Assembly (NCBI GenBank): GCA_032358255.1
Contig: JAULBX010029069.1
Location: forward strand, 1 to 24,410
Direction of reading: 5' to 3'
DNA length: 24,410 bases
From: Heterotrichella gracilis
Taxonomy: Eukaryota; Sar; Xanthophyceae; Tribonematales; Xanthonemataceae
Of this stretch, positions 6,735 to 24,410 are shown piece after piece (within the stretch, counting starts at the first letter, position 1; each line of letters begins with the position of its first letter). A program made the position numbers and the translations under genes. The notes under the pieces were generated by a model. The model did no database searches, had not been told where the DNA came from, and worked only from the letters and a program-made list of their open reading frames with translations.

Positions 6735-9700
6735 CTAGGCACCACCTGGCCACGCCACCCCCCACCGCTGCGCCCTCTCCTGCATGCGTGCAAGGAACAC
6801 CCCTTCTCGCAGTGACTCAAGCAGGTCCAGGAGGCACCTGGGGTGGTGGTGGGGGGGATTGCACATGGTTGGGGTTGCAGTCGGCATGATTCTTGTGCGG
6901 TGACGGGTGCACGTGGCGGTGCACTAGGGGTTGCACCAGGCGGTGCACTTTACCACTTGTGCCGCGGGCATGCACATGTGTTGGATGCAACTGGCATGGC
7001 GCATGCGGTGAGACGGTGAAGTTGATGCGTGACATGAGTGACAGGGTCATCCTGTGTGCCACTTACATTCCAGGCAGGCTGCTGGTCAGGGTGTACTCCG
7101 CATTGTCAGGGTCCTGCATGGCGAAAAACCGTGTCAGTGTTTTTGCAGATTTTTCCATATCAATTTCGTTTCAGTTTGGTGATCACCACGCATAAACCCC
7201 CCTCCTGTTACTGCATTGAACCCTTGAGGGACAGGTGTCTGAAGTGGACTGGTGCCTGATGTGCACAGCATGTTCTTGCATAACATAAACGAGCATAACA
7301 TAACGAGCAGCGTTTGTGCAATTTGCAGGGCTGTTATTTCTGGTGCTTGGTATGGCCGGATTTCTGGCAAATTTGGATAGCATAAATTAGGGTTTAGGGT
7401 TAAGTTTTTGGCATGCACCTGTGTTGCTGAGTAGTGGCCCACTGCCAAGCTCTGCACCACCCGTAGGCACATGAGGGGTTTAGGGTTTGGGTTTAAGGGT
7501 TTAGGGTTTAGGGTTTCCTTGCACCTTTGCAGCTGAGTAGTGGCCCACTGCCAGGCTCTGCACCACCCTGAGGCACATGAGGGGGGATAGCACGGCAAGC
7601 TCACTGGGGAGGAGAGGGGACACATGCAGGTAGCCAGCCTGCAGGGAACATGTCAATATGGGGTTAGGGTTTAGGTTCCGGTGAGTTGCTATGCCCATCC
7701 TTGCTCTTATCATCCGTCCACTTACATACAGCAGAAAATCCACCATCAGCCCACTGCCATCTACCACCATTTCCCACCCCTGTCACCCCCACAACCCACA
7801 CCCACCATCACCCCATACACCACCACACTACCACCTCCATGCCGTCACCCCACCCCACCACAATAACCACCTACCCACCACCCACCAGCACATTCCCGGC
7901 TCCCTCCAGTGCCTGCTCCAGCCACATCATAGCGGCATAGCTCATAGCGATAGCTATGTTACTTGCCCACCACCACCACACCCAGCACTCCCACCACCAC
8001 CACACCACCACACACAGCACCACCCCAGCCCTTTAATCATCCGCAACCCACCAGCACGTCCCCAGCCCCCTCCAGTGCCTGTTCCGGCCACATCATAGCT
8101 GCATAGCTCATGGCGAGAGCCACCTCACCCACCACCCATCCGTGCACACAGTCGCCCCAGTCCAATAGGCCTATCACCTGCACGCACATGCCACTTGTCA
8201 ACCCTAAACCGTGACCAGGGATTTAAACCTAAAACGCCACCCGCTCAAGGGGATTTAGATGTCTGCATTAACCCAAATTTGAATTGATTAATAAAAAGTG
8301 TCAAATTGAATTCAACTTTTGTTTAATCTAGATTGCTTTTTATTTTCTACCCTTTGACATGCCCCTGGTCACACACCAATCGCACGGCGGTGGACGTGTG
8401 ACAATCACCCTGTAATTTAGGTTGGTGTCGAAGAGTTTTCAGCCACCTGTCTGCCTCCCTGGTCTCCAGCACAAGCCATTCCACCCACTACTGCTGGAAC
8501 GCATGCAACCAACCAATCAACCCGAGAAGGAGTTGTAACAACCTAGAGTGTATGCCTTTGGCTTGGGAGTTGCGTACGGTATTGCACCTCACCTTGCCAG
8601 CACCCCTGTCCACGAGCACGTTTGCCTCGTTTGCATCCCCGTGAATGGCCTGACGCCGCAGGGGTGGGTGGGCAGCGGCCAACGCGGCCTCTACCCTGTC
8701 AGCCACACCTAGTAGCCGTGACCTGCATACATCACGACAGGGGATGGTTTACACATACAGATTTGGTGTACATACAAATTCAGCTACATGATTCGCAGCT
8801 TCTACATGATGCTTGTATGTATGCAACTCATACGTGTTGCCTGGTCAAACACCTGCCAGGTTGAACCAGGTTGAACCAGGTCGAACTCCTGAACACCTCA
8901 TCTGGCAGGTATCATTGCAGCTGACGACTGGGGCTTGCACTGCTGCCAGGTTCCGCAGGCCGGGCACTGAAACTGGCGACGCAATCATTCAGACTAAAAG
9001 CAACGTTTATGGATACTCTATATTGGCCCATTACTGTGGCAGAATCTTGCAAATCTTTTTACCTGAGCAGCTGATCCGGGAGATAGCTATCCGGGAGATA
9101 GCCACTAGCCAACTGATCCGGGAGATAGCTATCCGGGAGATAGCCACTCCGGAGATAGCTATCCGGGAGATAGCCACTATAATGCGCCAGCTGGCGCACA
9201 GTGGCTGGTGCTGCCGCTGGGTCTCAATGGTCAGCCTTGAACGCTATCATGCACAACAATACACAAAAAGCTATTCTAATTGTCTGTACTCTGCTCTATC
9301 AGGATATGCTATGCCTGGCCGAGTACCTGAGCGCCTGATCCTGGAGGTAGTGTTCCAGCTGGCGCACTGTGGCTGGTGCTGCTGCCAGGTCCCAGTAGTG
9401 GGTGGTGGGCAGGGAGGGGTGGTGGAAGTCAGCCAGTGCATCGTCGAGGTCAGCAAGGTAGGAGCCAAGGGAGAAGAAGAGGGAGTGGAGGGTGGCGTCC
9501 TGGGAAAATTGATAAATGATCCATGGTAAACAACAAATAAATCTTCATGTGCCAGGTAGGTTGGTAAAGACCGGGCAGGGTTGCACACTGAACACCCCTA
9601 ACAATTGGCCAGATCGGAAGATAATCCATTAATAGTCCCTGTGCCCACCTTTGTTACTCCTTTGATTGATCTCCAGGCATTTAAAAGGAAAAGTACAAAT

Positions 9701-11070
9701 AAATTTGCTCAGGCATTTAAAGGATAAGTAAGATGCCAGCCCTGCACCCACCTTTGGTGCTCCCTTGAGCAGTTCTCCAGGCATGTAGGTCAGTAGCCGC
9801 ACGATGTGGGTGGACTCACTGGAATGGTCCCTGATAAATGGCAACCACAATACATGTATGATTATGCACTCACCATCAGATTCACAGTCACAGTCACAGT
9901 GACAATCACAATTACAATGGTCCCTGGTGCATGGCGTATGGAGCCTTGGATGGCAATGACAATGCATCTCACAACACCGCGGTTGGAAATTGCAAAGCCA
10001 GGCATAATCACAATCAACAATGACGATAATAACTGCATTTTGTCCTCGTGTGGAATATATTTGTTGCATAGAAGTGGAGGGCGATAGCTTTACACACCCA
10101 GGTGGCAACATTGCAAACACTATTTTGGAAGCATCTGCAGATGTCTAACTCTGGGTTGCAACACCACCTGAGCCGTGCAGCGGGTACCCCAGGTACATGG
10201 GCTCTGTCCATTTTCCTTGGTAATCAAATGTGTGGTAAGCTTGCTAGCATACATGCCGTACCTGTTGGGAAGTCGTCGGCTGACGAGGAAGCTGCCGGAC
10301 AAGTCGGGTACTGGGTGGTTGCACTTGATTGACTTCCCTTGTAGGTGTTCCAGGATGGCATGCTGCGCCTGGGCATGCATGCGCCAAGGTGAGATTGAAT
10401 ATAAATTGTAAATAGATGCTCATCAGGCGTAACAATCCTGAATTCTGAGTGATTTAACTAAAAATATGGTCAATTTTCATCTACGTATAATGTGAAGTGC
10501 AAGATGCTTGTTGAGGCTTAATAGTTTTATTTACAAAATTTCATTAGTATTCCAAAAGGATGCGCAAATCAAGCACAGTTTAAAAAAGATATTAAAAATG
10601 TACACTACCTCAATGTGCAGCCGCTGCTCTGAGTCTAGGCTGTTGTGGATTTTCAACACAAATTTTTCGCCAGGCTCTCCACCTACACACAGGGACACAG
10701 CATGCGCATCACTTCTCATCTCACGCCCCTGACAGAAAGACCCATGTATATTATTGTGGTACCGGCACGGCTTACCTTGTCCATCCACAGTGATCAGGAA
10801 GTTTCGGTCATCGTATGACACCAGCTCTTGGCATTGGCGGGCGTGCGATCCAAACAGTGTCTCAACAAGCCGCACAGCATGCTCTTCTGTAACCCACGGC
10901 CGCTCAATCTGCTGTGCAGACTGGCGTTATTCCTGGCTGAGGTGGGTAAAAGACTGGCAAGGTGCATGAATCCTTCCTAAGCTTCCATGGCGTCAATTAA
11001 ATATGCACAATAAGTGTTTAATTGTGTAGTGACTGCGTGAATGTGTCCAGCTCACCTGCTCTTTGTCCAT
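6735..11070 (-). CDS. Hydroxylysine kinase-like protein (HYKK/AGPHD1 family), 11 exons, 367 aa
   Basis: Exons in order are 11070-11056, 10911-10776, 10682-10609, 10368-10262, 9830-9752, 9499-9327, 8722-8593, 8177-8052, 7638-7525, 7113-7067 and 6837-6735. All junctions are GT-AG, phases agree at every join, and the total is 1104 bases. The product has the aminoglycoside-phosphotransferase kinase fold: ELVSYDDRNFLI (residues 34-46), the ATP-binding lysine in FVLKIHN (K61), VRLLTYMPGE, the catalytic loop IHGDANEANVLV (H222, D224, N229) and the metal-binding LLDWGD (D244). The C-terminal DPDNAEYTL and a short leucine-rich helix match the end of animal 5-hydroxylysine kinase, as does the length (about 373 aa there). 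The family phosphorylates 5-hydroxy-L-lysine with GTP; the algal substrate is not shown. The start is chosen because MDKEQ joins in phase to QIERPWVTEEHA; the exon stays open upstream to 11202 after an AG, so a longer N-terminus is possible. No M23 peptidase or aminotransferase domain, seen fused to this kinase in some proteins, was found. Confidence 0.88.
7388..7516. repeat. TTTAGGG arrays flanking a duplicated exon tail
   Basis: Telomere-type GGGTTTAGGG motifs occur at about 7389-7401 and again, more extensively, at 7477-7516 (several TTTAGGG, TTTGGG and TTTAAGGG steps). Between them lies the copy of the end of kinase exon 9, and immediately after them the genuine exon 9 end. The arrays are intronic and short, so this is interstitial telomere-like DNA, not a chromosome end. 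Confidence 0.75.
7411..7478 (-). repeat. Copy of the 3' end of kinase exon 9 with its donor, in intron 9
   Basis: This repeats 7518-7583 with about six or seven mismatches at an offset of about 106 bp. It includes the codons for CLRVVQSLAVGHYSA and a preserved GT at the donor position. The genuine exon is the one continuous with the acceptor at 7638. The copy contains no acceptor and has no start of the exon. Confidence 0.88.
7880..7954 (-). repeat. Copy of the 3' end of kinase exon 8 with its donor, in intron 8
   Basis: This repeats 8046-8120 at a constant offset of 166 bp, covering the codons for MSYAAMMWPEQALEGAGDVL and the GTGGGT donor. About ten substitutions have accumulated. The metal-binding LLDWGD part of the exon is absent from the copy, so it cannot replace the exon. 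Confidence 0.88.
7960..8050. repeat. CCACCA-rich low-complexity tract in intron 8
   Basis: CCACCACCACAC steps here and at about 7760-7880 separate the genuine exon 8 end from its copy. All frames through it are compositionally Pro/His/Thr-rich. It is probably slippage-derived. Confidence 0.7.
8882..8955 (-). repeat. Old copy of the 3' end of kinase exon 6, in intron 6
   Basis: On the minus strand it aligns over about 70 bases with the end of exon 6 (coding LAAAPATVRQLEHYLQDQAL) with many substitutions, and the donor GT has become GA. It is the more distant and more decayed of two copies in this 604-bp intron. A triplicated CAGGTTGAAC (8857-8885) adjoins it. Confidence 0.65.
9059..9226 (-). 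repeat. Copy of the kinase exon 6 end with internal amplification, in intron 6
   Basis: The right part (9187-9226) matches exon 6 at about 9355-9394 (CAGCTGGCGCAC, GGCTGGTGCTGC). The left part (9059-9075) matches the exon end and donor at 9323-9340, with GTA retained on the minus strand. Between them, where the exon has one CTGATCCTGGAGGTAG, the copy has an array of CTGATCCGGGAGATAG-like steps. The copy therefore expanded after it duplicated. Confidence 0.8.
9071..9179. repeat. Array of 42-bp units built from GGGAGATAG steps
   Basis: Units begin CTGATCCGGGAGATAGC at 9071 and 9113, with a shortened third from about 9148. Each contains two GATAGC/GATAGCCACT half-steps. The plus frame reads as a repeated LIREIAIREIAT, which is a by-product. 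It resembles the coding sequence for YLQDQ at the end of exon 6 and probably amplified from a copied exon tail. Units are adjacent without spacers, so this is not a CRISPR array. Confidence 0.85.
9634..9682 (-). repeat. Copy of the 3' end of kinase exon 5 with its donor, in intron 5
   Basis: This repeats about 9736-9784 at an offset of about 102 bp, covering the codons around MPGELLKGAPK and the donor GTGGGTGCAGGG (GTGGGCACAGGG in the copy). Next to it, CAGGCATTTAAA occurs twice (9676 and 9713), a further short duplication filling the gap to the genuine exon. Confidence 0.82.
9881..9918. repeat. TCACAG/CAATCA microsatellite in kinase intron 4
   Basis: A short run of TCACAGTCACAG steps grading into CAATCACAATTACAATGG. 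The Cys/Asp-rich minus-strand translation over it is an artefact of the repeat. Confidence 0.6.
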
Positions 11071-12032
11071 AGACAGCAACCCAATGTCGAAGAGCACTGC
11101 CTGACACAGCTGAGCAGCTCCTGGTTCTAGGTCAGTGTTACCACGCCATGCCGCTAACAGTGTGTGGGGACTCCCGAGCATGCCCTTGCACTTGTAGCCA
11201 GCCTAACACGTAATCAGAGGTACGAGTTCACTTTTAAGGCTAGCTGTGACGCGCAATGCACCCAAGAGAATGTCTGACAAGCTTGCAGCTGACGTGGATT
11301 TTGGCTCAACTGAGCTACAGTGACAGGTGTTTATGCGTGTGGTTTCCAGCGTCGTGCTTTGCAGCTCAACTTTATGCTTTCTTGTGTTTGCTAGTTAGGT
11401 TTAATGGTTGCAGTTGCAGGTAGCGCTGCGATAGAACTGCTTTTGCACTGCATGCACTGGTTTATTGGGCATTAGTGCATGCATCTGCTGTTTTTTGCTG
11501 TCCTCGTTGCACCGATCATAATATCTCCCTTATGTGGGGCTTGATGGATGCCAACTTCACTGAAAAGGAGTGCAAACAACTATCCATGGTATTCTTGTAC
11601 GTCCTAAGTGGCTGCATTCGCGGCGGGGCGTAGCAGTGACTGTCGCACGCTGAGGGCAAAGCTGCACTAAGTGGCAATAGCACCCCCATCTTTGGGTTTA
11701 CATCCATTACAGCAAGTGCACCCAGCTTTACTGTCCCCAGGTTCCGGTGACTAGGGTCTTTGGTACGAGCGTGTTGGGTTGCTGCGTTTGTCCCCGCTTC
11801 GCCCGGGGCCGTTGCTTTACTAGCACGCCAGGGAAGTGGTGAACAGCTATTTCCACAGCTGTCATCACATCCCTCAGCAAACAACCACACACACCCTTCT
11901 ACCTCAGCTACGACTTAAACTACTTGACACCACCTCTCCACGCAAAAACTCTACCCAGCGTTTCCAGCACCGAAAACTAGCACGCCCACCAGCCAACTCC
12001 CCACCTGCTAACAAACACTTAGCCCCGCCAAG
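11071..12032. promoter_or_regulatory. Divergent intergenic region between the kinase gene and SLU7
   Basis: It separates the minus-strand kinase start (11070) from the SLU7 start (12033) and must hold both promoters and 5' UTRs. The last 180 bases before SLU7 are CA-rich and purine-poor, as expected of a leader, and end GCCAAG before the ATG. The first 132 bases past 11070 stay open on the minus strand (to 11202) and could be extra kinase N-terminus. A 124-codon minus frame (11516-11890) has no recognisable features. No TATA box or other defined element is assigned. Confidence 0.55.
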
Positions 12033-15000
12033 ATGGCGTCCTCAAACACCATGTTCAAGTCCCATGAGGAGTTCAGACGAAACAAGGAGCTTGAGGAGGC
12101 TCGTAAGGCCGGCCTGGCACCAGCAGAGCTCGATGAGGAGGGCAAGGCCATCAACCCCCACATCCCACAGTACATGTCACAGGTAAGCATGACTGGACTT
12201 GAAGCTCACACTGGAAACAGTGCACTGCCAAGCCTTGATCCTTGAAGTGTGGTGAAGCATACGCAGCAGTGCTACCCCGCTAGGAAGCTGGACTAAATTG
12301 CACATTCCCCATTCCGTACCTCATAACCCAATTGCTACTGTGACCCAGGCGCCCTGGTACCTGAACAGCAACCACCCCAGCCTGAAGCATATCCTTAGTG
12401 CTAGCTTGAAGCTGGAATGAAGTGCACGTTGCATCCTGTACCCACATAACCCAATGTTTTGCTACCGTGTCCCAGGCGCCCTGGTACCTCAACAGCAACC
12501 ACCCCAGCCTGAAGCATCAGAAGGACTGGCGGGACAAGGCCAAAGATGACCAGTGGTATGACAGGGGCGCCAAGGTGTTCCAGGCCAACAAGTGGAGGAA
12601 GGGGTCTTGCGAAAAGTAAGCCGCTGCCGCACCCCATGGCATAGCCATGGCAAAGCATGTGTCTCAAGTTTCTGCACTTGAAGTAGTTTTTCCTCGCATT
12701 TCCTATTACTGCAGACATATATCCTGTCTGCTCACTTACTTTGCAGCAAAAACAGCAATGCATGCATATGGGTTGGCACCCAATGCACCCCTCATGCACC
12801 CTTACCCCTGATGTCCCGATGCCCCATCGCATCATCTGCGTACAGCATTTACCTCCCATGCCGCATGCCCCATGCACCATGGCTTCCCATATACACCCCC
12901 CTGGCGCCCTTTCCCCTGCCCAGCTGCGGCTCCATGTCCCATGCCACCAAGGATTGCCTGGGGCGCCACAAGGGCGGATTCACCAAATTCCCTGATTGCA
13001 AGTCTGCACATCCTCATTGCACCACCAGCATTTCCCTCATCATTATTGCATGCCCTCTTACAAAGCCCTCCATTGTCCCCCACCCAGCTGCGGCTCCATG
13101 TCCCATGCCACCAAGGACTGCCTGGAGCGGCCGCGCGCCAAGGGCGCCAAGTTCACCAACAAGCACATAGCTGCTGACGACAAGGTGGAGGAGATCAAGC
13201 TCACCTCATTTGATGCTAAGCGGGACAGGTGGAACGGGTAAGCAACAGGGCATCTTCTGGGTCCAGGGCATGACAGTGACGACCACCTGTCGCCATTGGG
13301 CACGCACTCGTTGGCACCAATCGATTCCATAACGGGGTGGTAATGTTGGTACTGCTGGGAGGCTAGAGTGGCCAACCAGGGCCTGCAATTGCAAGTCAAT
13401 GATTATCAATTTGCCCCTCCCCATCCCAAAATGCAACAGATTACGGTTGTGCAGGTATGGCGCACCTGAATATGGCCGGGTGATACCGCTGTGAATATAG
13501 TCAATTTTATACACAACTTTTGCAAAAATATTTAAATTACAATAACACCACACCTGTGCGCAGGTACGATGCAGCCGAGTACGGGCGGGTGATGGACCGC
13601 TACGAGAAGCTTGAGGGTCTGAAGGATGAGATCCGCAAGAAGCAGGAGCTTGAGGCGCGGTTCAAGGAGGGGGGGGAAGCCACGGAAACCAGCGGGGAGG
13701 GGCAAGGGGAGGGGGAGGGGTACCACGTGGATGAGGACAAGATACTGGAGGAGGAGGAGGCAGGTGAGTGCCCTAGGGTTTGGTTAGGGTCTAATTAGGG
13801 TTAGGAAACCAGTGGGAAGGGGAGGGGGAATGGTACTTTACGTGGATGAGGATAAGATCCTGGAGGAGGAGGATTCAGGTGGATGTCCTAGGGTTTTTAG
13901 GGTCTTGTTAAGGTTAGGAGAGGAAGGGGAGGGGTACCACGTGGATGAGGACAAACAATATCCTGGAGGAGGAGGAGGCAGGTGGGTGGCCTAGCGTTTG
14001 GTTATGGTCTGATTAGGGTTAGAAAACCAGTGGGAAGGGGAGGGGAGGGGTACCACGTGGATGAGGACAAGATCCTGGAGGAGGAGGAGGAGTGGGTACC
14101 CTAGGGTTTGTTAGGGTCTGGACTGGGTTGGGAAAGCCTATCTGGGGTCCAGAGGGGGGATGCTATGTGTATGCATGACCATGGTAGAGCATTTTCTCTT
14201 TGGCATTAGTCATGTCTTGCATTTCAGTATTATTGTGTCAATTATTTCAATATCAAAGATAGAGGTGCAGTGCAGATTGCCTTCTTGGTCTCATACACAC
14301 CCTGCTGACATTATTCACCGCCATTCCCCACCCAATCGCACTGTGCGCCCTTCCCCACTTTCTGACCCTGCCCCCTCCCCATGGCCCTCCCCTAGGGTTC
14401 AGCAAGGTGGAGAAGCGCGTGCGCACCACCGCGGGAGGAGCCACGGGGTCGGTGCGAAACCTGAGGATTCGCGAGGACACCGCCAAGTACCTGCTGAATC
14501 TGGACGCCAATTCCGCGCATTACGACCCCAAATCCAGGTCCATGCGAGAGGACCCTAATCCTGATAGGGACCCGGCGCTCAAGACCTTCCATGGGGACAA
14601 CTTTGTGCGCCAGGGGGGCGATTTCGAAGGTATGAAGGGTGGGGATTCGGCTGCACTCTGCCTGCAGGGGTGGGGCTGTGTATTCCTGGGTGGCAGTGGG
14701 TGGATGTTAATGGTACAGCCATGCGGTGGTGGCTTGGATGAGGTTGTTCAAGCCCTGCAACTCAACCATTCATCCCGTTGCGACAAGCGCACGCGCATGC
14801 GCGGCTTTGCGCTAAAGCACCCCCACATCCCACCCATCTACCCATCAATCGCAGACCCTCAAATCTCCATGTCAGACATACACAGGTGGTCAAACCAGAC
14901 ACATGCGGCGACGTGTCAGGCTTGCAAACTCGATTACCTTAAGCTTTGAACCTCTTGACATTCATAAGTGGGGCTAATACCCCATGACATCTCCATGCAA

Positions 15001-16999
15001 ACCCTGAAGCCTGACCCCGAATTCCACCCCGCAGGCTGGCAGGCGCTCAACCTGTACGCCATCCAGTCGCACGACCGGGGGGCAGACATACACGCGCAGG
15101 GCGTGCCCTCCCAGGCCGAGCACCTGCACCGCCTGGCGGCCGCTAAGAAGGCGCAGCTGACAATCAAAGACAAGGTGGCGGTGGTGGAGGCGTATGGGAA
15201 CGCGGCTGAGGCGCCCCCTGAGCAGGAATTGCTGCTGGGTCAGACGGAGGCGTATGTGGAGTACGATGCTGCAGGTGGGTGGTGGGGGTTGAGGCGGCAA
15301 AGATAATTTTTTTTGTGAGGAAGAAACTTCAGAGGAAGCTTAAGAAGGGGGAAGCCTGCGCTGGGTGGTTGGTGGCTGGTGGCCGGCGATGGTGGAGGCA
15401 TTCGTACAATCTTTGTGCTAGTGTGTAACGAGGATGTCATCACAATTGATCAACAACCACACATCTGTGTGGGATAATGGCGGCGCGATGCAAAAAATGC
15501 GTCATAAACCCTACATGAACCCTAAACCCTTCTCACCCCCACTTCTGCAGGCCGCCTGATCCGAGGCGTGGAGATCAAGCCCAAGTCCCGGTGGGAGGAG
15601 GATGTGTTCATCAACAACCACACCTCTGTGTGGGGGTCCTGGTGGCGCGAGGGCCAGTGGGGGTACGCCTGCTGCCACCAGGGGGTGAAAAACAGCTACT
15701 GCACGGGGAAAGCAGGGGAGGCGGCGGCAGCGCAGGCGGCGGGCGCCATGCAGCGCAACATGGAGGTCAAGCTGGCGGAGCAGGTGGGTTTGGTTTAGGG
15801 TTTTGTGAAGGGTTTGTGTGGGGCTTGGGGACATTAGCATAGCAGCAGGGATCCGCCTGCTGCTATTATGGGTGGAATATAGCTTCAGCATGGAAAAGGG
15901 GGAAGGCGGCGGCGGCGCAGGCAGCGGGGCACGCAGTGCAACATGGAGGGCAAGAGGTTTGGGGTTTGATAGCTTGTGATCAGGGTGCGAGGAGGTGGCA
16001 GCGGGAGGCCATGTGGGCCAAGCATCGCAGCATGGAGGTCGATTTCGCAGAGCACATGGGGTTGGGGTGGGTCGGCGGGGGAGCAGGGCAGTTTATGGGA
16101 CCAAACCGGTGCCGCTGATGTGGGACCGATTTGATTATTGTTCCATGTTAGAACATATCTTTTATGTCTATCTCTATCTTCTAATGTATTGTGAGTTACA
16201 CCCCTTCCACTTAGGTTGTAGCGGGCTGTTCATTCCCTTTTAGTGGGAAATAAAAGGTTGTAGCGCAAGTGCACCCAGCCATTATTCTTTGCCAACATAA
16301 TTAAATCTTTTGTATTTTGCCCCAGGCTCGCAAAGGGGAGTCGGATGCGTCCGGCACCGGCAAGCCCCCCTTGGCTCCCAAGCAGGCCGTGTGGGGCAGC
16401 GAGGCCACGGAGGTGGTTGAGCTGGATGAGGCCAAGCTGGCTGCGGCGCTGGCGCGTGCCCGGGCTGGTATGGAGGAGCAGGTGGAGACTGATGAGCGCA
16501 AGCGAAAGTACAACTCGCTGGCGCAGGAGGAGGTGGGTGGGCGGTTTTCAAGGGTTTAGTGTAGACCTAGGGTTTGGGGTACCATGGTAGCGAGCGAGGC
16601 CACAGAGGTGGTTGAGCTGGATCAGGCCAAGGTGGCTGGTGCGCTGCGTGCCTGGGCGGGTATAGAGGAGCAGGTGGAGACTGATGAGCGCAAGCGCAAG
16701 TACAACTCGCTGGCGCAGGAGGAGGTGGGTGGGCGCATGTTACTTCTTAGGTCTTTTGGGTGCCATCGGGGGTGGGGGAGGGTTGGGCTGAACAACTGGT
16801 GGGGGGCAATGGGGAGGGTGTAAGTGCCCGGGTGGGTCTTGATGAGGAGGTGGAGACTTATTCCCTGAAACCCTGCAATCCCTTTTTCCAGGTTGGCGCT
16901 GAGGAGATGGAGGCCTACCGCTTGGTGCGCTCGCGTGCAGATGACCCTCTTGAGGCCATCAACAAGGCCAAGGGGGAGGGGGGATACGACTATGTGTGA
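12033..16999 (+). CDS. SLU7: Pre-mRNA-splicing factor SLU7, 9 exons, 553 aa
   Basis: Exons are 12033-12182, 12476-12615, 13088-13237, 13564-13763, 14396-14629, 15035-15274, 15551-15783, 16326-16532 and 16892-16999. Every junction is GT-AG, phases agree, and the length is a multiple of three. SLU7 acts in the nucleus in the second catalytic step of splicing and in choosing the 3' splice site. The protein shows the early block [14 protein letters not shown] (52-65), the CCHC zinc knuckle formed across intron 2 ([14 protein letters not shown], ligands C95, C98, H103, C108), [14 protein letters not shown] (233-246), [16 protein letters not shown], and [19 protein letters not shown] (392-410). It ends with [13 protein letters not shown] and [16 protein letters not shown]. 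Length is close to plant and animal SLU7 (roughly 535-590 aa). Exon 4 ends in a Gly/Glu-rich acidic stretch that is tandemly repeated in the next intron. Seven of its eight introns contain partial copies of neighbouring exon ends. Confidence 0.96.
12286..12391 (+). repeat. Copy of SLU7 exon 2 head with its acceptor, in intron 1
   Basis: It repeats 12411-12517 at an offset of 127 bp, including the intron tail (CATAACCCAAT), the CCCAG acceptor and 42 coding bases with a single mismatch ([14 protein letters not shown]). After the word for KH it diverges. The genuine exon is the downstream copy because only that continues to the donor at 12615. The copied AG is a strong decoy acceptor. Confidence 0.93.
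12908..12995 (+). repeat. Copy of SLU7 exon 3 head (zinc knuckle) with acceptor, in intron 2
   Basis: It repeats 13072-13160 at an offset of 164 bp. The pyrimidine tract, CAG acceptor and the next 38 coding bases differ at one position, and the copy stays open to beyond 13100. It keeps the knuckle residues contributed by exon 3 (C, H, C in [11 protein letters not shown]). After CLG it diverges, and no donor as good as that of exon 3 is evident. It could be a poison or alternative exon, or a neutral relic. Confidence 0.92.
13445..13495 (+). repeat. Copy of SLU7 exon 4 head with acceptor, in intron 3
   Basis: It repeats 13554-13604 at an offset of 109 bp: GTGCAG acceptor, then codons for YGAPEYGRV matching the genuine YDAAEYGRV. 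It runs into a TGA about 13 codons in, so inclusion would truncate the protein. It is older than the copies in introns 1 and 2. Confidence 0.85.
13804..14115 (+). repeat. Three tandem copies of the SLU7 exon 4 end plus donor, in intron 4
   Basis: The source is 13684-13803: coding for [17 protein letters not shown], the GTGAGT donor and a stretch of CCCTAGGGTTTGGTTAGGG. Copies have the anchor ACGTGG at 13840, 13939 and 14055 (source 13725), giving steps of 115, 99 and 116 bp. Each copy still has a potential donor (GGTGGATG, GGTGGGTGG, AGTGGGTA). TTAGGG-type motifs form the joints between units. Confidence 0.93.
15429..15490 (+). repeat. Copy of an internal part of SLU7 exon 7, in intron 6
   Basis: It repeats 15590-15650 (codons around [14 protein letters not shown]) at an offset of about 161 bp, with a small insertion and roughly ten substitutions. 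CCCTAAACCC motifs follow between the copy and the exon 7 acceptor (about 15507-15530). The acceptor itself is not clearly duplicated. Confidence 0.8.
15841..15864. repeat. Hairpin in SLU7 intron 7
   Basis: AGCAGCAGG (15841-15849) and CCTGCTGCT (15856-15864) are perfectly complementary across a six-base loop. No function is assigned. Confidence 0.6.
15893..16070 (+). repeat. Two copies of the SLU7 exon 7 end, in intron 7
   Basis: The source is 15706-15800, ending with the codons for [12 protein letters not shown] and the donor. The first copy has ACATGGAGG at 15941, offset 183 bp from the source (15758). The second has GCATGGAGG at 16030, a further 89 bp on, and retains CAGAGCACATGGGG matching the donor region. 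The first copy is closer in sequence. Confidence 0.82.
16590..16860 (+). repeat. Near-complete copy of SLU7 exon 8 plus a third fragment, in intron 8
   Basis: 16596-16732 repeats 16401-16538 at an offset of 192-195 bp and stays open, coding for [13 protein letters not shown] through [11 protein letters not shown] with the same GTGGGTGGG donor. Only a few residues differ. A third scrap (GATGAGGAGGTGGAGACT, 16841-16858) sits 176 bp further on. The first copy lacks an in-phase acceptor. CTAGGGTTTGGGG separates the source from the first copy. Confidence 0.9.
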
Positions 17000-17440
17000 A
17001 GGAGGGGAGGGGGGAGAGCGCTGTCCCACAGAGTGGGTGTGGGGGACGGTGTGACTGGCTGGGGGAAGGGGGTGCGCTGAGCTTCAAGCATGGATGGAGG
17101 GCGGGACCAGGGGGGTGGCGAAGTGTTTGGACATGGGGTGGTTGGGGAGCGTTTCCTTTTACCCACATCAGGGCGTACTTGCCTGCGCCTTTGTGCCTAA
17201 TCAGTCATGTGTTTAAGACTTTGCACTGGTGCTGGAGTTGTTGGGCTGGGGACAATGGGAGAAAACTTGCTGCACCGTAGGAAAGGGGTGTAGGGGACAT
17301 ACTTGCTGAGAAAATTGACCATCTTTTGCCAACTCGCTTTCTGTAACCTAACACAGTATCGTTTCTGAAGTCACCGATATGGTAGGGGCGTAGTGGGCAA
17401 GACAGGCCACCTCGCTATCTTTCCCTTGATCACGAGCGCC
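17000..17440 (+). promoter_or_regulatory. SLU7 3' UTR and sigma-factor promoter region
   Basis: The stretch is G-rich just after the SLU7 stop and becomes mixed later. A TGTAA at 17342-17346, 343 nt past the stop, is the best polyadenylation-type signal. The next gene's proposed ATG is at 17441, so its promoter must overlap this interval or the transcribed 3' end of SLU7. No defined promoter element is recognised. Confidence 0.5.
17342..17346 (+). terminator. Candidate TGTAA polyadenylation signal for SLU7
   Basis: TGTAA is the standard green-algal polyadenylation signal. This is the first convincing one after the SLU7 stop codon and lies just before the next gene. Confidence 0.5.
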
Positions 17441-20400
17441 ATGCACGCATCTATGCGTTGTAACCTGGTCACAGACACATCACGCGACCTCGGTGCGTAT
17501 CCCACATGTAACTCCAGTAGTGGACCCACCTCCTGGATAAGGCCCAGCAAGAGGCGAGACATCGTGCCAAGGGCATCCCTGGAAACATCTTTACCACTGC
17601 CAGAAGATGGTATGTAGTTTGAGCCACTGATGAGATAGTCCAAAGTGCACTGTAGTATACTTTGGTAGTCGTTATTTGTGCACTTGGGTTGGTGCGTTTT
17701 GAAAGGGCTGTAGATCAAGCTATCTTGCAAGGTTGTGGTGTTGGAAGTGTCCCAGGCACCACAGTAGACCCCAGGACCCACACGCACTATGGTCAAGGCT
17801 AACCCCACCCCAACCTGCCCTTCAGGGGTACCCCTGGCGGAGGCCCCCTCTCCTGCCACTGGCACCAGCAACTCCCGTTGGGCCACAATACCCTCCACAA
17901 GGGTTTGCCGGGCCACCAGAACCAAGGCGCAATCACTGCTCCACACACCCTCTGCCCACCGCTCCGATGGGACCACCATACCCTCCACCAGAATACCCCT
18001 TGCCCAGACCTCCGTCAGAGCGCGACAGCCAGCCAGAGCCAATGCCGCCCCCCCTGTGCCTCCCAAGGACCACGTCGGGTGGCAGGTGCTGGCCAACACC
18101 TACGGGCAGTGGAGCTGCCACAGCCACGACAGCGTTCGCAGCAGCATGCAGCTGCAGACACAGCTGTGTGAAGCCTACCAGGTAAGGGGAGGTGAGGTGA
18201 GAGGTTTGCAGGGCGAACCAGGTATTTGTCGTGGTGGTGCGAGTCAACCAAGGCATGGGGAGCATGTGTATACAGTTTAGGGTTTGGGTTGTAAGTTATA
18301 ACTCAAAAAAAAAGGGGTGGATTCGATTGCTTGTTGAGCCACTGTGCTGGGCAGCTTCCTTCCCGCCAGAACTTCCACGCCATGCTTAAGGAGTTGCCGG
18401 CCGCCACCAAACCCTGAACCCTAAACCCTGGACCCTTAACCGCCACCAAACCCTGAAACCTAAACCCTGAACCTCAAAGTTGTTCCCGCAACTTTGCAGG
18501 ACTCCCACGCCATCCTGGCGGCACAGGCCAATCGGGCCCAGGGCAAGCCACTGGCCGCCTCTGAAAACCCTAATGTAGAGACCCTAATTTGAAAACCCTT
18601 CCTGCAGGACTCCCACGCCATCCTGGCGGCACAGGCCAAACAGGCCCAGGGCAAGCTACTGGCCGCCTCCGAAACAGCCCTCCTGTCCTCGCCCAATCTA
18701 AAGGAGAGGGTGGAGCGGGGGAGGGACGCGCTGCAGCTGATCATCGACGCAAATGCGGGCCTGGTATACTGGGCGGCATGGAAATTGGACAAGAGTGGGT
18801 CGATGTTTGAGGACCTGCTATTGACCGGTGAGGGGTGGGTGGTGGGAGGTTAGGGATGGGGGCTGCACCACACGTATGCACCGGTTGCTGGCTGATCCGA
18901 CATAAAGTAACATAAAGTATAGATCCAACAAAAAGTGTCAGGTCGGACACCTCAACCCCCTAAACCTGACCGCAACCCTGATTCTAAACAAAACCCCAAT
19001 TCCCCATGCAGGCAAGGCTCTTAAGTAGGTCATCGCGCTGCTCATTGATGTCGTGATCCAATCAAATCATTGATTGAATCATGAATTTAATTTTTGTGCG
19101 GCACAGGAGCAACAACGTTAATGCCGTAAAGCCATGAAACAGCCGCACAACAGAAGAAAACGTTGCCACCAGGGATTGAAAACTATTGCCCCTCGCCCAG
19201 CCCCCAACCTATCCCAATTCCTCCACCTACCCCGCCCTGACCTCGATGCCATGCTGCACACTTGTTTCCCTGACCCTTGAACCCAAACCCTTGACTCACC
19301 TGCATGCCCGGACGCCATAGAGGCCCGATCTAGAGGCAGATCCGGACCCAAACCCTAATCAACCCTAAACTTACCCGCAGGTCCTGATGCCTTGGAGGCT
19401 ACCGCGCTGCGCTTCAGCGCCGCGCATGGCTGCATGTTCAGCACCTACGCGTGGTGGTATCTGCGACACCACATGACCCGGGTGCTGCAACTGGAGGTCG
19501 AGGTGGTGCACTTGCCTATCTATGTGCAGGCTCGGGTGGCAAAGGTGGGTATTTTTGTAGCAAGGTGGGGGTGTATGTGGCGTGCATGGCATTGAGCATA
19601 CTCGAGCGCCTGTCAAAAGGGTGCGCGAAGGGTTGGGCACCCGGACTGTTTAGGTTATTAGTAAATAACCCAGAGTAGGGTTGATGGTTTAGAACGTGTG
19701 CACCCAGTCACTGTCCCACCTCTAGGGGCTGTGCAAACTGGGGTACAAAGTATTCAGCCCCAGTCGTAGGTGCCCGGGTCACGCACCAGGAAGCCACCAT
19801 AAACCGTATGCTATTTACCATTTTCCATAAACCCTATTCTAGATGCCGATGCCATCCAATGCCATCCAATCCATTCCTCCCCAGCCTGTAGATCTGGCAC
19901 AGGCACGCTCACGCCGCCCCTAACCCTCAACCCAATGGACACTGCGACTGCACACACCAAACCCTCACCTGCCACCCACCTGCCACCCACCACCAGGCAC
20001 CACCCACCAAACTTTAAAAAAACGAAATAAAAATAATAATAACTAAATTTATTCATTTCTTTTATATGTTAATAAAAACCACCACCCCACCACCGCAGGT
20101 CAGATTTGGCTACTGGGTGCTGCGGCAAGAGCTGCACCGCAACCCATCGCACGAGGAGATCGCGACCCGCACAGGGCTGAAGCTCGCCCAGGTAAGTTAC
20201 GTCAGCACTAGTAAATGATGATGGCGCCGTGTTTTGATAAATGATAATCGTTTAATATGATGATATGGCAACGGCATAGGTAACGTAACTATAACCGTTA
20301 TAACGTTATAATAACGTTAGCAGTGGGTTGGCCAGCCCTGCCAGAAAATCGAAGACTCACCCACATGAACAAATGAGTTCTGCTTGTAAGGTCAGCTAGC

Positions 20401-23079
20401 TAGTTACACTCACTCCAGCTTTACACCCAGAGTCGCAGGCAGCCCTGCATGCCTTGTGCTGTTGAGTTCAACGCAGCAAGGCGCAGAACCATATGTCCGG
20501 TGTCCTTGACTGTGGATTTAATGCGACCCCGCGCGCGAGCGTTCACTGGATGCCCTTGGTCTTCCCTGCTCCACCGCTGATGACATTGCAATTGTGGGGA
20601 ATTTTCTACTGTTCCCCATGTGCATGTGGCCCAGGTACAAGCAGTGGAGCGCTTTGCGTGATACATACTAAACCATACCCGAACGTGTATATACCGTACC
20701 ATACCCAAACGTGTCCCCTACCAAATGGTGCGCGCTACAAATCCGCCCCCTACAAATGTGCCCCAGGTACACGCAGTGGAGCGCTTGCGTGAGGTGCGCT
20801 CACTGGATGTGCTTACTTCTCCTCCTTCCAACGACAATGCTGACACGCTGCTGGACCAGATGACTGTGGGGCAGGCCAGCGACTTAGATGTGGAGGACAG
20901 CCAGACAGCGAAAAGGTGGGTGCGGGTGTGGGGGGCGGGGGGAAGAGGGGGTGGTATGCCTGTATGGCCTGGGAGCAATTTGCGGGATTGGAGAGGGGAG
21001 GGATTGGGTAGTATAGTGGCGGAGGGGGTAGAAATGACCACTACCTGTATAGGACAAGAGCCCGGTATACTGGTACTAAAGTCCCTTGCCAATGCTGTGG
21101 GTTGCCATATGTGGATGCACGACATGCATCAGCTGTCACACAAGTGCCGTGCAGCCCAGAGACACTACATAGACACTACGTGACACGTACTATGCTGTGG
21201 GTTTTGTGGGTTTTAATATATTTTGCCCTGCACCTCTCCATTGCAGGCAGCGCGACTTTGAGATCGATTCGTTGCTGGGGCTGCTCACTAAGCGCGGGCA
21301 GGTGGCAATAGGGCTGAGATACGGGCTGGGCGATGGCTATCTGCGCACATACCCGCAGATGGCCGAGCACATGGGGGTAAGCAGGCAGCGCGTGCAACAA
21401 CTTTGCAAAACAGGTGACTGCATAGAGACCCAGGCTGTGAATCTTGATACACCGATGGGTTCAGTGCGTGGGCTCCAAAATGTCCAGTGTTTTTCTCCAT
21501 CACTGCATCTAAATCATGGTAGCATCACCCTGAACTTCTTCATGTCGTCGTTTTTATGCGGGGCACAGAACCTGGCGTGCCCCACAGGTGCAGATGAGGC
21601 CAAATAAAACCCAGGACCAGGCCCTGAACCCTAATCCCGGGAGCGGTGTGCATCAACGGTGATAGCTACTGCCTCCCACGACTTGACAGGATGCAGAATT
21701 CAGTGTGAAGGGTTGAGGGTTTAGGATTGCCAGGGATGGGGTACAGTGGTCCCTCAAGATCAAACAGCTGGCCGCCCCACCTGCAAGCCTGCAGCGCTGC
21801 CAAAGCTTTCCGCCCATGTTCACCTCAGGGTGTGGGGTTTGGTAGCAGCCCTTTGAAAGCTTACCTGAAAGCACACAGGCATGAACCTTACTTAGCTTGT
21901 GTAATTTCTTTGTAGGCTTCCAAACCAGAAACCACACAGACATATATTTTACTCCTCACCCTAAACCCTAAACCCTACCCTTTGCGCACAGGCCTGGAGC
22001 GCCTCAGAGCGCGATACTCAGGGAGAATGCGCAAGCGGCACGGACCGCTTTTGCACAGAATGCGCAAGCTGCCGTCGGAGGCCCCCCAAGTGGCGGCGCT
22101 GGACGGGTCATTCGAGGAGGAGGAGGAAAACAAGGTGAGGCAGGGGATTGGGCTGCTGGGGCTGGTGCACAGGGCCTGATGGGTGGTGTGCTTGGAGAGG
22201 GTGAGGTGCTGGTGGTTGCCTGGGTGGAGGGAGGGTCATCAATCGCATGATCCGTTGCATGGTCTGGGGGAGGGGAATGGATGAACCAGGAATGGTGTAA
22301 ATTGTAACACCCCTGATGAACCTAGCGACCCTGGTGGCGTTTAATTGTGTGCCAAAGTTGACGATCTTCCATGGGCCTGCTATTGTAGGGCGTTGTTACC
22401 ACGCGTTAGGGTGAATACAACGACACGCGGGGTGATTTTACGGGGACATTGTGTTTGATGCTTTCCATGAAACATGGGAGGCAAATGAAGCTGGACGGCA
22501 AAGGGGACATTACGTTTCATGCTCTTGTTCTTCTCATCAACATCATCATTATCATCACTGCCTTATGCAAGTGCACATGTGTTGCCATGTAATGCTCATG
22601 TATACTAAATATCGACTGTGCAAGCTGCATGATTTCATGCAATGTCGTGCCAATGATTGTCGGATTCCATCATTCAGGGACATGACAAGACCGAATTGCA
22701 GCCCGGGGATTTATCCCTGTCCCTACGCAAGAACAACAATCCCAGCTTCTTGCTGTAATAGATATAGATTTGACAATGTACCATTACGTTAGGCACTTGG
22801 GTTTTGGTACAGTCAATGACTGGCTTCAAGCCAAACACTGGCTTATGCCATACAAGGTTTACAAAATTTCAAGGTATTCACATCCAGTGTAGTGGAGTAA
22901 TCATAAAATTAAGCAACTGCGGGGAAGTGACAGGTCTCAAAGAAATCAAAGGGGGATTTTTTGGTAAGCGAAGCCTTGATCACTAACAGTGCCGCGTCTC
23001 CTTGCAGGAGATTACCCAGCCAAAGAAAGTGGGGAAGCGTGGTGCACTGCGGCCAGTGGAAGTGGTGCCAACAGAGTAA
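17441..23079 (+). CDS. Plastid RNA polymerase sigma factor (sigma-70 family), 9 exons, about 527 aa
   Basis: Exons are 17441-17609, 17775-18181, 18608-18827, 19381-19544, 20099-20191, 20767-20915, 21247-21413, 21992-22134 and 23008-23079. All are GT-AG with matching phases. Sigma factors give promoter specificity to the cyanobacterial-type plastid RNA polymerase. Region 2 is seen in RDALQLIIDANAGLVYWAAW (core binding, about 231-250) and FSTYAWWYLRHHMTR (285-299, promoter melting and -10 recognition). Region 3 is HRNPSHEEIATRTGL with REVRSLDVL. Region 4 has RYGLGDG and the -35 helix-turn-helix TYPQMAEHMGVSRQRVQQL (435-453). A basic tail ends RPVEVVPTE. The first about 160 residues are Ala/Ser/Thr/Arg-rich with few acidic residues, as in a chloroplast transit peptide, and hold a 90-bp internal duplication (IPSTR twice). 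Exons 3-9 are secure. Exon 1 and its ATG are inferred from a GTATGT donor and phase agreement; the alternative start is ATG 17789 within exon 2. Confidence 0.9.
17886..18010 (+). repeat. 90-bp internal duplication in sigma-factor exon 2
   Basis: ATACCCTCCAC occurs at 17888 and 17978 with related flanks (GGGCCACA and GGGACCACC before). The protein reads ATIPSTRV and TTIPSTRI 30 residues apart. It keeps frame and adds length to the presumed transit peptide or linker. Confidence 0.65.
18359..18567 (+). repeat. Two copies of sigma-factor exon 3 head with acceptors, in intron 2
   Basis: The nearer copy (18490-18567) repeats 18598-18675 at an offset of 108 bp, with TTTGCAG acceptor and only four mismatches in 67 coding bases (DSHAILAAQA and on), then breaks into CCCTAAT-type sequence and stops. 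The farther copy begins after CCAG at 18370 (NFHAML), 130 bp further up and more decayed. CCCTGAACCCTAAACCC repeats (18412-18480) lie between the two. The genuine exon is the last copy because only it continues to the donor at 18827. Confidence 0.9.
19228..19345 (+). repeat. Possible decayed copies of sigma-factor exon 4 head, in intron 3
   Basis: Segments near 19237 (GACCTCGATGCCATG) and 19310 (GGACGCCATAGAGGC) resemble the start of exon 4 (GTCCTGATGCCTTGGAGGC at 19381) and are followed by CCCTGACCC or CCCTAATC runs. The match is short and degenerate; this may be chance. Confidence 0.35.
19853..20008. repeat. Short tandem repeats in sigma-factor intron 4
   Basis: GATGCCATCCAATGCCATCCAATCC (GCCATCCAAT twice) starts near 19847, and CACCTGCCACC occurs at about 19967 and 19977 followed by CACC-rich sequence. 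These are simple local repeats without coding content. Confidence 0.6.
20301..20319. repeat. 19-base perfect palindrome in sigma-factor intron 5
   Basis: TAACGTTAT and ATAACGTTA flank a single central A. AACGTTAT-like words also precede it from about 20280. AT-rich palindromes of this kind are prone to cruciform formation; no function is assigned. Confidence 0.6.
20619..20660 (+). repeat. Copy of sigma-factor exon 6 head with acceptor, in intron 5
   Basis: It repeats about 20751-20791 at an offset of 132 bp: CCCAG acceptor and codons for V-AVERL with one extra T, which shifts the frame into TGA. Between copy and exon, the words CCATACCC and AACGTGT are themselves repeated. The genuine exon is the downstream one, open to 20915. 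Confidence 0.85.
22442..22530. repeat. About 61-bp direct repeat in sigma-factor intron 8
   Basis: GGGGACATTGTGTTTGATGCT at about 22442 recurs as GGGGACATTACGTTTCATGCT at about 22503. The rest of this 873-bp intron contains a TCATCATTATCATCA run near 22545 and no recognisable gene. Confidence 0.55.
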
Positions 23080-24267
23080 CACGGCTTGCGCGCTCAACTT
23101 GCTCCGCATCCTTGAGAACAGGCCAGTGTACGACGGCAGTGCAGGCTGCCCGCCAATCACAGCAGGGGAGCTGAAGGAGGCAAACGCAGTGAAGAACCCA
23201 GCCAGCATCCCACCTCCCCAGTAGTAGAGTTTGTGTCCAAGGTACTGTGGGAGGGCAGTCGAGGCGCCTGTGAAGAGCAGAGATGCCATCGTGCGGGCAA
23301 GCAGGCATGCCATGGTGTGTCAGCTGATACAGTCTGGGTGTGGTTAGGGTTTAGGGTTTGTTCCCCACTTGTAGCTGATGCAACATCACAGGTTTGTGGG
23401 CCCCATCGGATGTGTGTGGGTGCTGTACTTGTAGATGGAATTGACCCGACATTGTCGGTCTGTGAGTGATAGTACAGGTAGGATCCTTGGAGAAATGATA
23501 TATTATAATGTATATTATTGCCTGCTAGACATTTGATCAACTTCTTTTACTTCTTTGGGTAACATGTTTTTTGACGGAGGGTTTGGAAGGAGGTTTGAGT
23601 GGATGGGGCGGCGGATTGCCAAGTTACGTGTGCGGCAGTTGATGTCCAAGACGAGGATACCGCCAGGCGCTTAATCAATGAATAGCGTGGAATTAACTTC
23701 AACAAAATAGTTACAACTACAAATCTTGTAACATCGATTTGCGCTATCCACCGCGTTGCACTCGAGGTCTGCTTCAAAGCAAATGCCTAGAGTCCTGGTG
23801 CCACCTCAGCAAGCCTTCTGGATGAACTAAACTTGCAATTGAAGATGTCTGCACTTTAGCACCCCCACGTGCAAAATGCTCAACAGTAAATACTTCAATT
23901 GGCCCAACCTTGTAGCGCAAATGAGGGGCTAATAATAATATATAAATGTAACAAATGCCCACCATGTACACATATTGCTCACATGTGCCGGTTGCTGACC
24001 ATGTGACTAGAGGTCAACGAAGTCCTTGAATTTCAGTGAAGAAGAGTGAACCTAGTAGAGATTGATGGGGTGTGCTTTGGCAGTGAATACCCATGCTCAG
24101 AGTGTGAACTCAGCCAGCCAGAGCAGTGAAATCAACAGATTAATGAGTCAAACCACATATTTTAAGTTGTAATTTAAATGAATAGCAAAATCAAGTTGTA
24201 AAATACTTTATTATACCTAGAAGTTATAATTGTTTACCGGGGTTGAAGTCACCTCACTCGTGCCCAT
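23080..24267. other. Downstream flank of the sigma-factor gene, no gene seen
   Basis: This contains the sigma-factor 3' UTR and intergenic DNA. A GGTTAGGGTTTAGGGTTTG motif lies at 23341-23360. TGTAA polyadenylation-type words occur at 23727-23731 and 23947-23951; which is used cannot be told. Open frames on both strands (for example 22909-23313 and 23157-23540 minus) are shadows of exon 9 or have no features. The composition becomes AT-rich after about 23500. Confidence 0.55.
23727..23731 (+). terminator. Candidate TGTAA polyadenylation signal for the sigma factor
   Basis: It is a clear TGTAA downstream of the sigma-factor stop, about 650 nt away, which is long but not unusual for algal 3' UTRs. 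The later TGTAA at 23947 is an alternative. Confidence 0.3.
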
Positions 24268-24410
24268 CATTCAATCCTTCACTCTGGAAAAGAAATACAT
24301 TTTCGTTCACATGCTCAGCCCCCCCACCCCCACCCCCCAGTTTCAAAGCCTTCACTTCATTCAATATTTCACTCTGTAAAAGAAATACATTTTCATTTAC
24401 ATGCTCAGCC
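24268..24410. repeat. 90-bp direct repeat at the right edge
   Basis: CATTCAAT followed by TTCACTCTG and AAAAGAAATACATTTTC occurs from 24268 and again from 24358, ending at ATGCTCAGCC both times, with a C-rich spacer between. The second unit stops at the window edge, so the array may continue. Confidence 0.8.

Follow-up and report, generated by a model that had tools for sequence, protein, structure and literature searches.

Junction-abutting direct duplications and telomere repeats in the introns of an algal genome

Internal gene duplication was reportedly treated by Gao and Lynch in 2009, and tandem duplication in genes is said to supply splice sites in this way. In mouse and human cells, fill-in by CST-guided polymerase alpha-primase at complementary 3′ overhangs gives rise to small tandem duplications (excerpts of PMC8355091). 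For mammals, the insertion of telomere repeats at breaks has been described, and six out of 130 loci in rodents and four out of 25 in primates showed a duplication of the flank (excerpts of PMC2246262). In the RdRp gene of potato, a tandem duplication across an intron-exon boundary rendered former exon sequence intronic, which shows that a junction-crossing duplication with an exon turning into intron can be tolerated (excerpts of PMC4974935).

Here, a stretch of 24,410 nucleotides (the window) and 283 kb outside the window, taken from a draft assembly of 68.5 Mb in 903 contigs, were analysed for copies of exon ends within the adjoining introns. The copies resemble the products in the excerpted text of PMC8355091 in being short, local and direct duplications, and the fill-in machinery of that work is also telomeric; they differ in that the breaks there were induced, with overhangs as small as 43 bases, and that the excerpted text holds neither a telomere scar nor a junction pattern. 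Scattered telomere repeats and an occasional duplication of the flank are shared with the mammalian loci, but in the excerpts of PMC2246262 duplication is the minority, whereas here 23/73 clusters of telomeric tracts (9% of controls) were flanked by direct repeats of 25-160 bp, several of them at splice junctions. As in the potato gene, splice signals are inherited from the copy and a boundary is crossed; the excerpts of PMC4974935 describe a single case that created a new intron, whereas existing introns were recurrently lengthened here. Tandem duplication in genes also supplies splice sites in the excerpted text of PMC3443670, but no new intron is apparent here and the copied unit contains an existing junction. 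Intron gain of the Rogers type, in which the intron ends come from two copies of an exon segment with AGGT, does not describe the present copies, since their unit holds an existing junction, and neither does tandem duplication of (mutually exclusive) exons, as the copied part was a single exon end or an inner stretch of the exon in the cases examined. No paper on the combination of break-repair duplication, junction pattern and telomeric scars came up in the open-licence papers that were searched. Each mechanistic ingredient is already known; new as far as searched are the density of the duplications, the limited fit of plain tandem copying and the telomeric scars. A previous interpretation of the window from its letters (the sequence-only reading) had held that no established name exists for such a pattern. 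This was too strong, since the potato case (PMC4974935) and the staggered-break mechanism (PMC8355091) are described in the excerpted texts; that interpretation was right in outline, but incomplete in its mechanism, and it overstated the novelty of kind.

Genes and junction copies in the window

The models of three genes were rebuilt, all of them in frame and with zero internal stops: a SLU7 splicing-factor gene (12033..16999, plus strand, 9 exons, 553 aa), a gene for a sigma-70-type factor (17789..23079, plus strand, 8 exons, Pfam regions 3 and 4) and an APH-type kinase gene (7525..11181, minus strand, 9 exons modelled, without the 3′ end). Among the matches listed, the best relative of SLU7 was 63% identical at 100% query coverage, and the closest proteins among the best 120 of 4,959 matches belonged to trebouxiophycean green algae (Apatococcus 63%, Coccomyxa 61-64%). 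The genome with this SLU7 probably has a trebouxiophycean green algal affinity, without a close sequenced relative. Near the start of the window, a frame with a reverse-transcriptase domain (PF00078; 510-1763, plus strand) lies downstream of a tandem array of 132-133 bp units (1-513), and the two together look like a decayed non-LTR retrotransposon. At the other end, positions 24267-24410 hold an extra direct duplication of 54 bp with 91% identity and an offset of 90.

According to the sequence-only reading, about 13 of 26 introns of these genes carry partial copies of the adjoining exon, which follow a junction rule: the acceptor with the exon head is copied upstream, or the exon tail with the donor downstream. 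All 13 listed copies were recovered, 11 of them with a score of at least 40 (11/24 modelled introns) and two as weak ghosts, the latter tested against 500 shuffles (p=0.002 each). The 11 copies are located in SLU7 introns 1, 2, 4, 6, 7 and 8, kinase introns 6, 8 and 9, and sigma introns 1 and 4 (numbered 2 and 5 in that reading). Most of the listed pairs were visible in a self-comparison of the window.

All copies of the SLU7 gene were found on the plus strand. The ghost acceptor with the exon 2 head in intron 1 (12349..12390) is 97.6% identical over 42 bp to its source at 12476-12517 and shows ACCCAG at the ghost site; it is part of a full-unit tandem copy (pair 12284-12390 / 12408-12517), with homology through the intron part of the unit. 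In intron 2, a ghost acceptor with the exon 3 head (12924..12965, ghost site GCCCAG) is 95.2% identical to 13088-13129; its extension into the intron is 18 bp at best, and the joint between the copies is single-copy in the genome. The weak ghost of the exon 4 head in intron 3 (13455..13490, source 13564-13601) begins exactly at the junction. The first part of intron 4 is occupied by an array of the exon 4 tail with its donor (13704..14119, period about 113 bp), with a third copy at 14029-14090 (93.7% identical) and telomere-like stretches in the region, and no copy of the exon 5 tail was found in intron 5 (shuffle test, p=0.70). An internal stretch of exon 7 (15607-15650) is copied with 84% identity in intron 6 (15446..15488), 56 bp off the junction, and forms an exception to the junction rule. 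The copy of the exon 7 tail in intron 7 (15848..15954, source 15660-15771, 77.7% identical in an alignment of 112 columns) ends 12 bp from the donor, and a quarter of the joint consists of telomeric 7-mers. In intron 8, the exon 8 tail and donor (16398-16543) are copied at 16593..16735 (91% identical in the exon part, ghost site GTGGGT); the homology ends 11 bp past the donor, and a telomere-like tract (16551-16575) lies between the copies.

The sigma-factor gene, likewise on the plus strand, carries a ghost acceptor with the exon 2 head in intron 1 (18500..18566, source 18608-18674, 94% identical), and the two copies enclose a telomere-like tract (18565-18599) at distances of 0 and 3 bp. A ghost acceptor with the exon 5 head is located in intron 4 (20635..20661, source 20767-20792, 92.6% identical, ghost site GCCCAG, score 41). 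On the minus strand, the weak ghost of the exon 5 tail in kinase intron 5 (9649..9683, source 9752-9787) ends exactly at the junction, and the copy of the exon 6 tail in intron 6 (9187..9226, source 9355-9394, 87.5% identical) lies 28 bp from the donor. The ghost of the exon 8 tail with its donor in kinase intron 8 (7886..7954, source 8052-8120, 87% identical, ghost site GTGGGT) belongs to a full-unit copy (pair 7788-7954 / 7966-8120). In kinase intron 9, the ghost of the exon 9 tail with its donor (7426..7478) is 94% identical to its source at 7532-7584, and a tract of telomere repeats (7476-7516) is placed between the copies, 0 and 3 bp from them.

Frequency and placement of the copies across the sampled loci

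The loci outside the window were found by a Pfam search as conserved exons of chaperonin, kinesin, tRNA-synthetase and HSP70 genes. The matches used were 57/58 for chaperonin (without C180, which is intronless), 91/93 for kinesin (without the weak C387:105547 and C197:15181), 15/37 for tRNA synthetase (contigs C85, C902 and C508; all matches on other contigs were dropped, as were two C902 rows, of which one contained five stops), 25/53 for HSP70 (C95, C55 and C717) and 0/13 for aldehyde dehydrogenase. A usable pair of neighbouring exons was present in 37/43 sampled loci; L013, L018, L024, L029, L037 and L039 were excluded, and still included in the duplication counts. Contigs C1, C68, C111, C180, C222, C331, C369, C442 and C520 look intronless, and long intronless aldehyde dehydrogenase and tRNA synthetase genes are located on C1, C68, C111, C222 and others, which suggests that the intronless contigs are bacterial and mixed into the assembly.

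A copy of the adjoining exon with a score of at least 40 was detected in 26/148 modelled introns of the 40 genes sampled and in 11/40 of these genes. With 11/24 introns the window is unusually rich, compared with 15/124 introns, about one in eight, in the 37 other loci. At the same threshold, the far ends of the same exons gave 1/122 matches, non-adjacent exons 0/625, exon ends of other genes 0/1004 and the reverse complement 0/295 (1/295 at a score of at least 36). The single far-end match came from SLU7 intron 8; the exon involved is 207 bp long, and its copied stretch extends into the first 100 bases. In a first survey of 163 exon cores from the first 40 loci, a same-strand copy within 600 bp with a score of at least 45 was found for 15 cores, compared with 0/163 for the reverse complement, 0/163 for flanks 600-1200 bp off and 0/815 for other genes; the intron count given above took in three further genes. 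The comparison of adjacent with non-adjacent exons had been suggested by the sequence-only reading as a genome-wide check, and in the sampled loci it came out in favour of that reading. Its junction rule held for most copies, the copy ending within 7 bases of the true junction in 22/27, but failed for the other five, which end at 12, 12, 28, 50 and 56 bases. The offsets of junction copies with a score of at least 40 ranged from 65 to 331 bp in the whole sample, 331 bp being the distance of a third copy in an array. The junction copies are local, direct and mostly bound to the junction, and they occur far above chance. Introns with a copy are longer, as had been proposed, with a median of 427 bp (n=11) versus 233 bp without a copy (n=91; p=1.6e-5, first 40 loci).

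Duplications were also recorded irrespective of gene models, with search offsets of 40-400 bp. In 307 kb, 65 direct duplications were found, all at offsets of 62-271 bp, which corresponds to about one recognisable duplication per 4.7 kb in the sampled stretches; the units are 60-210 bp long and about 70% to 98% identical. In a census of the window and the first 40 loci with simple and telomeric sequence masked, 56 direct pairs were counted at offsets of 40-400 bp, none at 400-1600 bp and three at 1600-3200 bp, and inverted pairs numbered 0 up to 400 bp and two at 400-800 bp. The direct orientation and close neighbourhood (56 direct versus 0 inverted pairs up to 400 bp) are what is expected of fill-in at staggered breaks. 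Without masking, direct pairs were also seen at offsets of 698 (L034) and 403 (array in L038), which means that the limit on offsets is not strict. Among the 65 duplications, offsets of 62-136 bp and of 161-214 bp were observed, together with 235 and 271 bp, and none at 137-160 bp; this gap, which was spotted post hoc, is close to the nucleosome core length (gap test p=0.0016, Silverman p=0.063), and no conclusion was based on it. Multi-copy arrays were observed in L038 (3484-3982 and 7132-7587, with telomere-like pieces in the region) and in L030 (5592-6001), with periods of about 134, 90-111 and 90 bp, and give the impression of an initial duplication to which others were added later.

Within modelled gene bodies, 25 duplications span a junction, three are intronic and none is exonic; the duplication at L042 4839 counts as intronic here and as a junction copy in the intron count, being 12 bases from the donor. 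For uniform placement of units of 60-210 bp with exon-only events removed, 52% of the tolerated units are expected to span a junction on geometric grounds, and the observed 25/28 exceed this value in a naive test (p=3e-5). Outside the window, 15/17 duplications lie at a junction, with p=0.002 at an expectation of 52%, and p=0.018 at 62% or 0.056 at 68%, the last two values being our own guesses to allow for detection bias. Part of the excess reflects the fact that similarity in exons survives better. The junction rule needs little biology, as about half of the tolerated units must span a junction and exonic sequence is recognisable for longer.

Joints between the copies and telomere repeats

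The sequence-only reading had proposed a tandem duplication of a segment spanning the junction. This holds for 10/27 junction copies, in which the homology continues through the unit into the intron (extension scores 13-59), but not for 12/27, in which it fades near the splice site (best extension 3-39 bases, scores 3-11) with exon parts that are 2-18% different; the other 5/27 end at a distance of over 10 bases from the junction. Random pairs of introns reached extension scores of up to 11.0 for donors and 10.6 for acceptors, with 95% points of 6.0 and 7.0. The 12 fading copies are within this random range and about half of them are above the 95% point, and the fading copies probably retain a few bases of true homology. 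In six of the 12, the exon parts differ by less than 10%, yet the extension into the intron is only 4-18 bases, so decay is a poor explanation for them. Judged from these alignments, filler between the fading copies, or insertion of the copy at a distance, seems to be the case. The L005 acceptor (offset 89), one of the 12, leaves room for no more than 27 bp of intron part, which aligns weakly, and this copy is therefore ambiguous. A joint of at least 10 bp was present in 41/53 duplications, the longest being 128 bp. Plain tandem copying clearly fits fewer than half (10/27) of the junction copies, which is new as far as searched.

Interstitial telomere repeats are extremely common in the genome: TTTAGGGTTTAGGG had 5,629 genome-wide matches compared with 5 for the reversed word (overlapping matches counted). 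In 100 introns of the window and L001-L040, TTTAGGG was commonest right after donors and CCCTAAA right before acceptors. Non-telomeric direct repeats were present on both sides of 32/113 tracts versus 200/3030 control positions; six of the 32 matches are supplied by one array (L038 3564-3893), a redundancy that was removed by clustering of the tracts. The link between tracts and direct repeats was retained after clustering, with 23/73 clusters flanked versus 131/1421 control placements (p=2.6e-7), and outside the window, with 18/63 versus 69/1231 (p=3e-8). Both copies were located within 25 bp of the tract in 9/73 clusters versus 18/1421 controls, and outside the window in 5/63 versus 9/1231. 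A tract at the breakpoint with modified target flanks, as in telomere insertion, was thus found for part of the tracts. The flanking repeats are 25-160 bp long. The two tracts in the window at 18565-18599 and 7476-7516 are clear cases of a tract between copies; in L026, a telomere-like tract of 44 bp lies between two 52-bp copies, and in L042 copies of 67 bp are each 2 bp from the tract. The counts at tract flanks were relied on, since the telomere enrichment in joints is inflated by the masking of tracts before the pair search. No telomeric 7-mer was contained in 22/41 joints, so a telomerase step could account for a part of the duplications at best.

Fate and origin of the copies

If the ghosts were in use, as alternative exon ends or as decoy splice sites under selection, their splice sites and reading frames should be preserved. 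The splice dinucleotides GT or AG are intact in 17/22 ghost sites, in agreement with the proposal that decoy sites are generated, and the ghosts in L003 and L027 differ from their exons by synonymous changes alone (6/6). The retention of the dinucleotides is near the drift expectation by our own estimate, and across 20 copies the mismatches between exon and ghost fall at codon positions 1/2/3 in the numbers 36/30-31/71-72, close to our own estimate for a neutral ghost and a constrained exon (about 1:1:1.75), with frame-breaking gaps in several. Coding constraint was rejected across all copies, while the two ghosts named look constrained when taken alone. In an alignment with six SLU7 relatives, ghost-sized insertions were absent; the longest insertion had 5 residues and occurred in one relative, at the junction of exons 7 and 8. 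The copies are therefore not regular exons there. Taken together, the ghosts evolve as non-coding DNA and are on the whole decaying leftovers, which bears out the claim that the spare half-exon is nearly neutral; they may act as decoy splice sites, but their use under selection is very unlikely. An assembly artefact, i.e. two alleles or strains set in tandem, could be imagined for a draft of 903 contigs, some of them apparently bacterial, and is highly improbable given identities from about 70% to 98%, ghosts with non-synonymous and frame-breaking changes, offsets that cluster at 62-271 bp, and no second locus from three queries. Just as improbable is an origin from introner-like or other mobile elements with splice signals, which would account for short intronic stretches of unknown origin at splice sites and for telomere-like motifs that recur between introns. 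The usual target-site duplications are shorter than the 25-160 bp repeats that flank the tracts. In an all-against-all comparison of 117 introns, homology among introns of unrelated genes was limited to 22 weak matches of 17-73 bp, which were not inspected singly, and two joints and one whole duplication were single-copy in the 68.5 Mb assembly; an introner or mobile-element origin was rejected on these grounds. Introner elements (PMC9860276) likewise give many intronic insertions in a genome, but no shared element sequence was found among the sampled introns beyond these short weak matches.

More weight has to be given to plain tandem duplication by slippage or unequal exchange, without filler or a telomere link, with the telomere-like motifs being common intron sequence. 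The unit-long homology in 10/27 junction copies and the several multi-copy arrays (L038, L030 and window 13704-14119) fit this explanation, telomeric motifs are common near splice sites anyway, and the ambiguous L005 acceptor may belong here as well. It is nonetheless unlikely as a general account, considering the six fading copies with less than 10% exon difference and only 4-18 bases of intron extension, the three- to fivefold higher frequency of flanking direct repeats at telomeric tracts compared with random placements within the same loci, and the distribution of a G-strand motif close to the donor (within 75 bp), which was present in 6/19 copy-bearing introns versus 3/80 of the others (p=0.0014). 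The account that we consider reasonably likely is fill-in repair of staggered breaks, sometimes with addition of telomere repeats, combined with selection that keeps events sparing the coding sequence. Some observations also speak against the fill-in reading: 12 copies fade so near the splice site, which random overhangs do not predict, and the mammalian duplications are shorter than 100 bp, with induced overhangs down to 43 bases, compared with units of 60-210 bp here.

In the fill-in account, a general and sequence-blind repair process would duplicate short stretches of the genome in place. At a break whose complementary overhangs are long (tens to about 200 bases), both sides would be filled in and the ends rejoined, which would yield a head-to-tail duplication in some cases and direct copies X and X′ separated by a filler J in others. 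We infer the break, its overhangs, the enzymes and which of the copies is the original. In part of the cases the filler would consist of TTTAGGG telomere repeats, as expected if telomerase extends the overhang and CST with polymerase alpha-primase then completes the fill-in. The structure X-(TTTAGGG)n-X, which part of the loci resemble, could be read as a fill-in duplication joined with a telomere insertion, and telomerase may have acted at these loci. An event confined to an exon would be lost by selection, whereas one that spans a junction would be tolerated if the outer splice site stays in use, the spare exon end becoming intron. The ghost would subsequently decay neutrally while the true exon is constrained, and junction pairs would stay recognisable longest. 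A bolder version, which is possible though doubtful, holds that break repair routinely recruits the telomere machinery: telomerase would cap a broken end, and fill-in of the long overhang would be followed by rejoining as X-(TTTAGGG)n-X. Such repair would prefer exon-intron junctions, perhaps via single strands exposed by transcription or splicing, and the addition of telomere repeats would lengthen introns and provide them with G-rich 5′ and CCCTAA-rich 3′ ends that serve as splicing signals.

Under the fill-in account, this genome holds a dense natural record of repair that generates duplications, a process otherwise studied at induced breaks, and offers a route by which introns can grow and decoy splice sites can originate with no mobile element involved. 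Confirmation of the telomeric scars would tie the action of telomerase at internal breaks to intron growth, and both would be datable and countable in one genome.
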